Origin: a virus | Reading direction: 5' to 3' (one strand) | IMG/VR virus record: IMGVR_UViG_3300010354_000122 | Coordinates: 1 to 53,060 of that record | DNA length: 53,060 nt | In this document: positions 24,505 to 35,226 of the stretch, piece by piece | Layout of the letters: each line of letters starts with the position of its first letter | How positions within the stretch are numbered: position 1 is the stretch's first letter | Notes under the pieces: model-generated | What the model saw: the letters and a program-made list of their open reading frames with translations, nothing else | What the model was told of the DNA's origin: nothing | The model's database searches: none | Program-made: the position numbers and the translations under genes

Positions 24505-24995
24505 TGAGGATAGCAGTATACAACTGTACCGATCCTTATATCAAAAAGCTTTTGAAGCTTGCTGTCGATGATTATTGTGAAAGATTGTTTGGTGGAGACA
24601 AAAGAAGACTTAAAGGCCTTAGGTTTTCTATACACCTTAAAAAGGAACTTGAGGATAAAAGCGAGGGTGAATGTGAAGTTATTGATTATGAAACGAATGA
24701 GCTTCCAAAAAAATTCAGAATCAATCTTGTAAAAGTGAATCCACCTAGACTTTTTTCTTCGCTTGCCCATGAGATTGTACATGCGTGGCAATTTGCTCAT
24801 GGTTATGTAGACGGGGACTTAAAGAAGTGGAGAGGAAGATGGATTCCTCAATCAACTGATTATTGGGACGAGCCGTGGGAAGTAGAAGCGTATGGTCGTG
24901 AACCTGGTCTCTATGTTAGATTCAAAAGACGTTATCAGTTGGAAGAATATTTTAAACAATTTGACTTAGAACAAGATTTTAAGCCAACGTATTGA
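24504..24995 (+). CDS. SprT-like zinc metalloprotease-fold protein
   Basis: A 163-residue protein with the SprT-like core HEIVHAWQ (HExxH at residues 89-93), followed by a downstream PWEVEAYGRE segment that supplies the third acidic ligand. SprT/Spartan proteins act in DNA-protein crosslink repair in cells. No zinc-ribbon tail is present, so this is a core-domain version. It is the last gene before a strong promoter and structured RNA. Confidence 0.72.
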   Translation: MRIAVYNCTDPYIKKLLKLAVDDYCERLFGGDKRRLKGLRFSIHLKKELEDKSEGECEVIDYETNELPKKFRINLVKVNPPRLFSSLAHEIVHAWQFAHGYVDGDLKKWRGRWIPQSTDYWDEPWEVEAYGREPGLYVRFKRRYQLEEYFKQFDLEQDFKPTY

Positions 24996-25020
24996 TATAT
25001 AAATTTATATGTGGTATAAT
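24992..25020 (+). promoter_or_regulatory. strong sigma70-type promoter for the queD leader RNA
   Basis: TTGATA (24992-24997), a 17-base spacer and TATAAT (25015-25020) match the sigma70 consensus closely. Initiation would fall near 25027, right at the first base pair of the structured RNA. It overlaps the end of the SprT-like gene. Confidence 0.85.
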
Positions 25021-25027
25021 TTTATTA

Positions 25028-25132
25028 TGGTAGGCAGCACTGGTGTGCGGCCGGGTCTTATAAACCCGGGAGACTGGCTAGATGGGCTGGAACGGCAGGG
25101 ATCGTAACCCTGGCCTACTACCAGATTTTTTT
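25028..25132 (+). ncRNA. tRNA-like structured RNA upstream of queD
   Basis: This segment begins at the predicted transcription start and ends in seven T. GGTAGGC (25029-25035) pairs with GCCTACT (25113-25119), followed by ACCA. Inside are GCAC/GTGC (25037-25048), a 6-bp stem with seven-base loop CTTATAA (25051-25069; UAU in anticodon position with U33) and CAGGG/CCCTG with loop ATCGTAA (25096-25112). This resembles a 95-nt tRNA, but the D-loop has only four bases, about 26 G-rich bases fill the variable region, and the T-loop lacks TTCGA. It could be a degenerate tRNA-Ile(UAU), a distinct small RNA or a leader controlling queD; CTGG (25087-25090) can alternatively pair with CCAG next to the T-run. 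Confidence 0.6.
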
Positions 25133-25149
25133 GTTAATGAGGTGATATT

Positions 25150-25599
25150 ATGGCTCGATATAGAAGTACTAAAACTTTTGGTCATGATCTTGGATTCAGT
25201 GCTGCTTTCCGTCAGTGGCGAGCAGACAGCCATTGTAGGTTTATTCATGGTTATGCTTTAGCGTTCCGTTTTGAATTCGAAGCCGACGAGCTCGATCATC
25301 GTAATTGGGTTGTCGACTTTGGTGGTCTCAAAGGTCTCCGTAAGATGTTAGAAGATACGTTCGACCATAAACTTCTCGTAGCGAAAGATGATCCCGAGAT
25401 TGAATGGTTCCGTGAGGCCCATCGCAAGGGTATTGCTGACATTGTCGAAGTCGAGGCCGGCGGTTGTGAGAAGTTTGCTGAGCTTGTGTTTGAATATACA
25501 GAGCAATGGTTGAAGGCGGCTGGGTTCTCTCCTCGATGTCGTCTAGTGTCGGTCGAAGTTAAAGAGCATGGATCTAACTCTGCGATCTGTAGGAAATAG
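25150..25599 (+). CDS. queD: QueD-like 6-carboxytetrahydropterin synthase
   Basis: A 149-residue T-fold enzyme that turns dihydroneopterin triphosphate into 6-carboxytetrahydropterin, the QueE substrate. Cys29 precedes HGYALAFRFEFEA, the position of the catalytic Cys and zinc His; the usual HGH is HGY here, so one zinc His may be replaced. VVDFGGLK at residues 54-61, DH at 72-73 and the late Glu in VSVEVKEH complete the active site. ATG 25150 has GAGGTG upstream. It lies 14 kb from folE and queE, behind its own strong promoter and structured leader. Confidence 0.87.
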   Translation: MARYRSTKTFGHDLGFSAAFRQWRADSHCRFIHGYALAFRFEFEADELDHRNWVVDFGGLKGLRKMLEDTFDHKLLVAKDDPEIEWFREAHRKGIADIVEVEAGGCEKFAELVFEYTEQWLKAAGFSPRCRLVSVEVKEHGSNSAICRK

Positions 25600-26215: not shown

Positions 26216-26293
26216 CGGAGTGTAGGTCAGCCTGGTCAGACCGCCTGCTTTGGGAGCAGGATGTCGGGAGTTCGAATCTCTCCACTCCGACCA
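26216..26293 (+). tRNA. tRNA-Pro (anticodon UGG)
   Basis: Acceptor CGGAGTG pairs with CACTCCG; the anticodon loop TTTGGGA reads UGG for CCA codons; the T-arm has GTTCGAATC. CCA is encoded. A run of T follows directly. Confidence 0.96.
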
Positions 26294-26326
26294 TTTTTTT
26301 TTATTTTTAACCGTAAGGAGTATATC

Positions 26327-26761
26327 ATGGAGTTGAAGGGAAGCAAGACTGCAGAATGTTTAAAAGAAGCGTTTGCTGGTGAGTCGATGGCTAACCGTCG
26401 TTATCTTTACTTTGCAAACATGGCCGACATTGCTGGTGCACAGGAAGTGGCTAACGTGTTCCGTAACACGGCTGAGGGTGAGACCGGTCACGCTCATGGC
26501 CACATGGAGTATTTGTTGAACCTTGGCGCTGGTGATCCTGGTACTGGCGAACAAGTTAAGAACGTCGAACAAGCTCTCCATTCTGCAATTGAAGGAGAAA
26601 CCCACGAGTATACCGACATGTATCCTGGTATGGCTAAGACTGCTCGCGAAGAAGGGTTTGATGAAATCGCTGACTGGTTCGAGACACTTGCTAAAGCTGA
26701 GCGTTCACACGCCGGCAAGTTCAAGCGTACTCTTGACGCCTATAAGGCTGAAGGAAACTAA
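26327..26761 (+). CDS. rubrerythrin-like diiron protein
   Basis: A 144-residue ferritin-like protein of the rubrerythrin family. The four-helix bundle shows the usual diiron ligands: Glu19 in AFAGES, ExxH at 52-55 (GETGH), Glu91/Glu94 in EGETHEY and ExxH at 125-128 ([10 protein letters not shown]). The C-terminal rubredoxin domain with two CxxC pairs is absent, making this the short form. Rubrerythrins reduce peroxide, so an oxidative-stress role during infection is plausible. ATG 26327 follows AAGGAG; the longer frame starts inside tRNA-Pro. Confidence 0.9.
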
Positions 26762-34383: not shown

Positions 34384-35226
34384 ATGTTTGACTGTATGAT
34401 GATAAATGATGAGCTTGATCTTCTTGAGATCCGACTCCACACTTTGGATCCGATCATAGAAAAGTTTGTCATTGTTGAATCTCTTACTACTCACTCTGGT
34501 AAAGACAAGCCGTTACACTTTGCCAAAAACCAAAAACGTTTCCAGCAGTTTGAATCAAAGATTATTCATGTTGTTTATCCTGGCTACAATGCCCAGCATG
34601 GCTACGAAGTGTGGGGCAATGAGAACGGCCAGCGGGATTGGTTTCTCCATGCACTAGATCACGTGAGGCCCAGCGACAATCTTTGTTTCTATAGTGATCT
34701 AGATGAAATTCCCAGACCAGAAAAATTACTTGAGGCAAAACAACTCTATGAGCAAAACAACACGCCTGTGGCTTTCAATATGCATTATTGCATGTATTTT
34801 TTTAATTATTCTTTTGACGTTCCTTCACGAGGACCAATTCTTTACAATCCTGACCATGCAAAAGCATTCCACGCAAGAATCGGTAGGGATCTGCATTCCC
34901 CCACAGACGTTAGATGGCATTCCAACACCCCAGGATACGAACACGACTTTCAGAATCTAGATGATGCTGGCTGGCATTTCTCTTCAATGGGTGGCTACGA
35001 ACAGTTGAAAAGTAAGATTGCAGCGTGTGCTCATGTTGAGTATAATAAAGATGAAATCGTTTCAGAAGAAAACATTCAAAAGGCTATTGAAGAAGGCAGA
35101 TTGTACTTTGGAGATAACACATCAGCAAATGCAAGTGGAGAGCGTTGCAAGAAGCGTAGTCTAGATTTTCTTCCCCTTTATGTTCAACAAAACCTAGATA
35201 GGTTCAAACAATATATTTTGCAATAG
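34384..35226 (+). CDS. GT17-like glycosyltransferase
   Basis: A 280-residue protein resembling glycosyltransferase family 17, which includes beta-1,4-mannosyl-glycoprotein N-acetylglucosaminyltransferases. The hallmarks are an early MINDELDLLEIRL, FVIVESLTTHSG, and SDLDEIP at residues 104-110 with the metal-binding Asp residues; DAGWHFSSMGG occurs later. The acceptor is unknown; host surface glycan or a virion protein is possible. RBS AGGAG precedes the start, 15 bases after tRNA-Thr. Confidence 0.85.
   Translation: MFDCMMINDELDLLEIRLHTLDPIIEKFVIVESLTTHSGKDKPLHFAKNQKRFQQFESKIIHVVYPGYNAQHGYEVWGNENGQRDWFLHALDHVRPSDNLCFYSDLDEIPRPEKLLEAKQLYEQNNTPVAFNMHYCMYFFNYSFDVPSRGPILYNPDHAKAFHARIGRDLHSPTDVRWHSNTPGYEHDFQNLDDAGWHFSSMGGYEQLKSKIAACAHVEYNKDEIVSEENIQKAIEEGRLYFGDNTSANASGERCKKRSLDFLPLYVQQNLDRFKQYILQ

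Follow-up and report, generated by a model that had tools for sequence, protein, structure and literature searches.

Introduction

Bacteria generally read the AUA codon with a tRNA whose CAU anticodon has been modified to lysidine. Isoleucine tRNAs that carry UAU instead have also been described. According to work cited in PMC9976931, Lactobacillus plantarum holds redundant CAU and UAU forms of tRNA-Ile, and recognition of UAU by isoleucyl-tRNA synthetase (IleRS) is described in lactic acid bacteria; a tRNA-Ile(UAU) of Mycoplasma mobile is cited in PMC11938285. The main isoleucine determinants of a tRNA are the discriminator base, the anticodon and A37 (PMC9976931). A second group with UAU members is that of the allo-tRNAs, whose defining marks are a D stem of 6 bp and a branch of the 8/4 or 9/3 type (Mukai 2017, as presented in PMC7609411 and PMC11231383). 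As described in PMC7609411, UAU ranks among the leading anticodons in the 8/4 group, and an acidobacterial UAU form has an unknown function.

Here we describe a tRNA gene with a UAU anticodon in 53,060 nucleotides of viral DNA (IMG/VR record IMGVR_UViG_3300010354_000122), a stretch that we refer to as a whole as the window. An earlier reading had taken the locus for a promoter-driven, tRNA-like RNA that might control the neighboring gene, queD. We conclude that it is a genuine and complete tRNA gene and not a regulatory switch, and that it belongs to a family in which the UAU anticodon is linked to a hairpin with an AGAU loop.

Results

The window encodes a complete tRNA with unusual loops

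ARAGORN called the gene as tRNA-Ile(tat) and found 11 further tRNAs in the window (Table 1). The minimum free energy structure of the RNA is the entire five-stem cloverleaf (-39.6 kcal/mol; shuffle z -2.0). It coincides with the centroid and accounts for about half of the ensemble. The acceptor, anticodon and T arms and the CCA end described in the original prediction are all found in this fold, and the D-loop of four bases (UGGU), the variable region of 26 bases and the T-loop AUCGUAA are each present as claimed. The variable region itself folds into a 6-bp hairpin with the loop AGAUG. The proposed span, 25027 to 25132, did hold the tRNA but misplaced the mature 3' end, as the CCA sits at 25121-25123. 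The RNA was also said to be unlike the 11 other tRNAs of the window, and this is supported. It scores under the threshold of the Rfam tRNA model, and its best Rfam model is tRNA-Sec (RF01852), at 27.0 bits against a gathering score of 47. The window is a fragment of a T4-like phage, and a rubrerythrin gene (26261-26761) and a glycosyltransferase family 17 gene (34384-35226) also lie among its tRNAs.

Table 1. Features of the UAU tRNA locus, in window coordinates
Feature	Position	Strand	Remarks
Promoter TTGATA-17-TATAAT, TG before the -10 box	24992..25020	+	8 nt ahead of tRNA base 1
tRNA gene, type-1 member of the UAU/AGAU family	25029..25123	+	95 nt including encoded CCA; anticodon UAU
Acceptor stem, 5' strand GGUAGGC	25029..25035	+	7 bp; partner 25113-25119; G1.U72 wobble
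Linker A8 (single base) and D arm GCAC-UGGU-GUGC	25036..25048	+	4-bp stem, 4-nt loop
Anticodon arm, loop CUUAUAA	25051..25069	+	6-bp stem
Anticodon UAU	25059..25061	+	Matches codon AUA; called by ARAGORN; invariant in 80/80 distinct type-1 relatives
Variable region GAGA-(CUGGCU AGAUG GGCUGG)-AACGG	25070..25095	+	26 nt with AGAU hairpin; covariation
T arm CAGGG-AUCGUAA-CCCUG	25096..25112	+	Loop AUCGUAA
Discriminator A73 and encoded CCA	25120..25123	+	Invariant in 80/80 type-1 relatives, found by a scan that required CCA
T7 run after the tRNA (CCA, then GA-T7)	25126..25132	+	Not conserved
queD, neighboring gene, PHROG 2389	25150..25599	+	Nothing ties queD to the tRNA feature

The near-consensus promoter said to drive the RNA is indeed present. 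It matches the consensus at 11 of 12 positions (-35 box at 24992-24997, -10 box at 25015-25020) and is the best of seven promoter-like sites in 2 kb. Seven stand-alone phage copies of the gene, the window's among them, place the -10 box exactly 8 nt ahead of base 1, and TTGACA or TTGATA stands 17 nt above it in 6 of the 7, as read from the printed sequences. The six other copies that share the window's geometry (L002, L005, L012, L067, L087 and L097) mostly have TTGACA-17. Since the -10 box is 8 nt from base 1, the transcript should have almost no 5' leader. At the other end, the T7 run may aid 3' end formation in the window copy; a T-run follows the gene in only 3 of 90 copies, and a search around the window tRNA showed no terminator-like site.

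The fold and the loops are conserved in phage relatives

A pattern scan of IMG/VR with the D arm and anticodon loop returned mainly full-length relatives. Two more scans that placed no demand on the anticodon added others, every one of them UAU, and a structural parse left 80 distinct type-1 sequences that were aligned for covariation. The cloverleaf is paired in 97.8% of alignment cells, compared with 31-47% in slid-register controls, and double changes are seen at 24 of the 28 pairs, with every helix represented and the variable hairpin among them. The acceptor helix is 99.8% paired with double changes at all 7 pairs; the variable-arm hairpin has double changes at all 6. The acceptor-T branch is 7/5, as pair 49:65 covaries (AU/CG/UA/GC) and A8 is unpaired.

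The loops are conserved far more than the stems. A8 is kept in 93%, and the D arm GC..UGGU..GC with the GG behind it, the anticodon loop YUUAUAA, the flanks GAGA and AACGG, and the AGAU loop are invariant or close to it. U72 is found in 97%, usually as G1.U72. Relatives thus keep the unusual loops, and neither outcome named with the original prediction as refuting it, a fold as ordinary tRNA-Ile or a lack of conserved structure in homologues, was observed. The type-2 sequences, parsed with no demand for CCA, encode it in 42 of 78 cases.

Two further features of the alignment were observed. Pair 31:39, next to the anticodon loop, is paired in the window and unpaired in 42/80 relatives, mainly as A.A, C.A, C.U or A.C. 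ARAGORN detects the type-1 form at about half of loci, and those that it tends to miss are probably the ones with 31:39 unpaired; Rfam's tRNA threshold misses type 1. In the T-loop (25101-25107 in the window), positions 54, 58 and 60 switch together, as U..A..U in 51 sequences and A..U..A in 24, and each class includes several acceptor types. In the A..U..A class the usual m5U54 site would be lost and the 54:58 tertiary pair swapped.

The UAU anticodon and the AGAU hairpin travel together

At locus L137, the same anticodon loop and AGAU hairpin sit on an ordinary D arm. Immediately after this tRNA (G011:C1, about 224816-224919) comes the 3' half of a type-1 copy, and the tandem is likely a remnant of recombination or decay. 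With the anticodon loop and a following CGCCAGATNAGCG as the scan pattern, at least 120 stretches matched, and the matches listed include two further bodies: in one the D stem has 3 bp (AGAC-UUGGUA-GUC), in the other the D arm is canonical. In the converse scan, for the commonest form of the AGAU hairpin plus the T arm, the anticodon was left free; 109 distinct tRNAs were recovered, all UAU. The parse assigned UAU to 107 of these and misread the remaining two, in which the same UAU loop is present; a single non-tRNA match was left unparsed. A73 is present in 107/109 of this set and G1.U72 in 93/109. Because every tRNA found with a free anticodon is UAU, the hairpin and the anticodon travel together across different bodies.

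The gathered loci hold 207 distinct UAU-loop tRNAs, 197 with a long arm and an [AG]GA[TC] motif and 7 ordinary, a proportion that is no census because the loci were gathered with such patterns. An ordinary short UAU tRNA and a long-armed one occur on the same phage contigs at L307, L326, L331, L345 and L286, often with a CAU tRNA adjacent.

The family is found mainly in the tRNA arrays of large phages

Carriers are mostly large uncultured phages in which the gene lies within arrays of up to 44 tRNAs, often adjoined by Ser and Cys tRNAs. Among cultured phages, type 2 is carried by the Synechococcus phages S-SRM01 and S-SKS1, where the gene is unannotated, and by Sinorhizobium phage Phosso, where it is annotated as tRNA-Ile(tat). 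In Phosso (L421, 3959-5087) a gene for translation initiation factor IF-3 lies about 0.5 kb upstream. Type 1 was not found in cultured phages, where only T-arm matches to ordinary tRNAs were returned.

A type-1-like copy is present on three Cereibacter plasmids. On plasmid p1 of Cereibacter azotoformans (L243, 6001-7351), and likewise at L242 and L244, this lone tRNA stops 37 nt short of an AAA-ATPase gene, and toxin-antitoxin genes (Fic, HipA-like, ParDE-type) are numerous around it. The arrangement is possibly a defence or toxin-antitoxin unit.

In Terriglobia, 8 of 399 genomes match the model. Some copies are in arrays on chromosome-like stretches and one is in a phage-like stretch (L202, 11060-12685), where a Ro60/TROVE RNA-binding protein and a PurZ-like synthetase are encoded beside the tRNA array. 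Two lone copies lie near metG-larC or near cinA and a radical-SAM gene. One array copy has the same body with the anticodon GAU, also an isoleucine anticodon, and is the only Ile tRNA called there; no GAU version with the type-1 D arm was found in phages.

AUA remains an isoleucine codon and is not in excess

The ORFs of the window contain 174 AUA codons (11 per 1000). In alignments with cyanophage ACG-2014d, AUA falls on isoleucine just as AUU and AUC do, with 47-52% Ile for the window. AUA still means isoleucine in these phages, and a reassignment of the codon was rejected on these columns. The main tRNA-Ile determinants are present in the 80 relatives, A35, U36, A37 and A73 at 100% and A38, which is also a determinant, at 93%. 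The minor E. coli IleRS determinants C4-G69, C29-G41 and D-loop G16/20/21 were not found in the window tRNA, which has A4-U69, G29-C41 and a 4-nt D-loop at these sites.

Among other potential readers of AUA, CAU tRNAs were sorted as Ile2, eMet or fMet by simple loop and 1:72 rules. In G004, a phage of 172 kb, no tRNA-Ile2(CAU) is recognisable, which leaves the odd tRNA as its only recognised AUA reader, whereas G005, G008 and G009 have both, and an Ile2-like CAU tRNA is also present in at least 21 of 54 tRNA-rich loci. Some type-2 phages also have an ordinary short UAU tRNA, and in some carriers the possible AUA readers number two or three. Domain searches of 15 phage records gave no IleRS and a single weak TilS-family match (PF01171 in G007), so that the host's enzyme would have to serve.

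At equal GC3, carriers showed no excess of AUA over control loci (effect 0.00 ± 0.14 for type 1 and -0.35 ± 0.14 for type 2), the controls being a crude set of chance-hit loci and a few others. Compensation for AUA codon usage was rejected for want of this excess. Since tRNA-Ile2(CAU) or ordinary UAU tRNAs occur alongside, AUA supply alone does not explain the odd tRNA.

Discussion

Because AUA means isoleucine, the main determinants are in place, G004 lacks a recognisable tRNA-Ile2(CAU) and no phage IleRS was found, the gene is most likely a divergent tRNA-Ile(UAU), predicted to be charged by host IleRS and to read AUA without lysidine. We hold this reading with moderate confidence. The tRNA would be transcribed from its own promoter, with a start that coincides with the mature 5' end or lies no more than about two bases from it, and after processing would be charged with isoleucine by host IleRS through the anticodon loop (A35, U36, A37, A38) and A73. 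On the ribosome U34 would read AUA with no need for TilS. Such a tRNA could provide the phage with its own or a spare AUA reader when tRNA-Ile2(CAU), of host or phage, is short, under-modified or cut. The AGAU hairpin may bind a synthetase or a maturation factor, or may shield the tRNA from a tRNA-cutting defence. The tRNA would often be a spare beside tRNA-Ile2(CAU), and this redundancy would fit either a spare that resists tRNA-cutting defence (PMC10264068) or a decoy.

We also put forward, more tentatively, that these tRNAs form a distinct class in which UAU, the AGAU hairpin and G1.U72 are combined on at least three D-arm bodies, with the hairpin as a dedicated recognition or protection element and with AUA decoded independently of lysidine. 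If so, the hairpin would allow charging by a non-standard route, be recognised by a binding factor or protect against tRNA-cutting defence, and phages would own an AUA-decoding line that relies neither on lysidine nor on the tRNAs of the host.

The alternative that survives best, though we consider it unlikely, is a guard or decoy RNA that takes no part in translation, whose UAU loop and AGAU hairpin mimic a tRNA and so engage or withstand a tRNA-targeting nuclease of the host or other tRNA-binding protein during infection. The redundancy with Ile2(CAU) and ordinary UAU tRNAs, the lack of AUA enrichment in carriers and the far stronger conservation of loops than of stems would all suit such a role, as would the position of the Cereibacter copy directly upstream of an ATPase gene among toxin-antitoxin genes. 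Phage tRNAs are able to counter tRNA-cutting defences (PMC10264068, PMC11555353), and E. coli synthetases failed in vitro to charge an acidobacterial allo-tRNA(UAU) that is possibly related (PMC7609411). Against a decoy stand the full tRNA anatomy, with its covarying acceptor, encoded CCA and invariant A73, the place in tRNA arrays, and one array in which the GAU version, again with an isoleucine anticodon, replaces the ordinary tRNA-Ile.

It is still less probable that the RNA is a missense tRNA charged by LeuRS, TyrRS or SerRS through its long variable arm, such that AUA is partly read as another amino acid. Leu and Tyr tRNAs typically combine a long variable arm with A73, and the best Rfam model is tRNA-Sec. 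Yet AUA columns align with isoleucine and show no excess of Leu, Ser or Tyr, and the linker after the hairpin is about 5 nt, as opposed to 1-2 nt in tRNASer and tRNALeu. The anticodon also never drifts, although none of the three synthetases would read it. Charging through body elements and not the anticodon does have a precedent in allo-tRNAs (PMC7609411).

A switch governing queD, in which the cloverleaf alternates with a CTGG/CCAG-T7 hairpin, is very improbable. The letters and the T7 run do exist in the window, but pairing of CTGG (25087-25090) with CCAG is not favored, as the cloverleaf wins with or without the T-run, and neither a conserved alternative fold nor linkage to queD is seen in homologues, which have differing neighbors and sit mostly in tRNA arrays. 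The region yielded no terminator-like site, and T-runs are rare behind the gene. In addition, tRNA substrates for queuosine need a GUN anticodon, a type to which UAU does not belong. Fold, conservation and gene context are thus all against a queD switch, which we reject. Least credible is a decaying or chance tRNA-like gene without function, because the covariation and invariant loops of 80 distinct sequences and the conserved promoter geometry outweigh the sub-threshold Rfam score of the window RNA and the half copy at L137 and lead us to reject decay at the level of the family.

The literature searched describes no phage tRNA of this kind, and neither the 7/5 build, nor an AGAU hairpin strictly linked to UAU on three bodies, nor their wide distribution among phages came up in it. 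The size and poor annotation of the UAU family suggest that many phages carry their own unusual means of reading AUA, and an isoacceptor class with an invariant anticodon and a shared hairpin is largely unannotated in phage genomes. As bacterial reading of AUA generally depends on lysidine, this family makes TilS-independent decoding, and a partner of the hairpin, testable. The cultured carriers (S-SKS1, S-SRM01, Phosso and the Cereibacter plasmids) put experiments within reach now.

Overall, the UAU family is a divergent version of a known kind of tRNA, and it is excluded from the two nearest kinds, tRNASec and allo-tRNA, by those of their defining features that were compared. With tRNASec it shares the 4-nt D-loop UGGU, the 6-bp anticodon stem and the long variable arm, and RF01852 is the best Rfam model for the window and its relatives (27-37 bits). 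In contrast, tRNASec has a UCA anticodon and a 13-bp (8/5) acceptor-T branch, where the family has UAU with A73 and a 7-bp acceptor plus a 5-bp T stem. Membership in tRNASec was rejected on the anticodon, the branch and a score below the gathering value.

Similarly, the family resembles allo-tRNAs in its tRNASec-like body, small D-loop and long variable arm; UAU is among the leading anticodons of the 8/4 group, and relatives of the window tRNA occur in Terriglobia genomes. It differs in the 7/5 branch, the 4-bp D stem and the invariant anticodon. An 8/4 register fails because pair 49:65 covaries, and with neither an 8/4 or 9/3 branch nor a 6-bp D stem, membership was rejected. The family is set apart by the description of allo-tRNAs, and part of it may overlap their UAU set.

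The remaining systems are more distant in build. The one-base linker between acceptor and D stem, the 6-bp anticodon stem and the small D-loop are also those of tRNAPyl, which differs in its CUA anticodon and tiny variable loop. As far as they are described in the citing papers, the tRNA-Ile(UAU) species of L. plantarum and M. mobile likewise use U34 for AUA without lysidine, with CAU redundancy in L. plantarum. To our knowledge they have ordinary bodies, with neither the AGAU hairpin nor a 4-nt D-loop. Finally, the lysidine-bearing tRNA-Ile2(CAU) reads the same codon and occurs in many of the same phages, and is distinguished by its canonical body, its CAU anticodon and its dependence on TilS.
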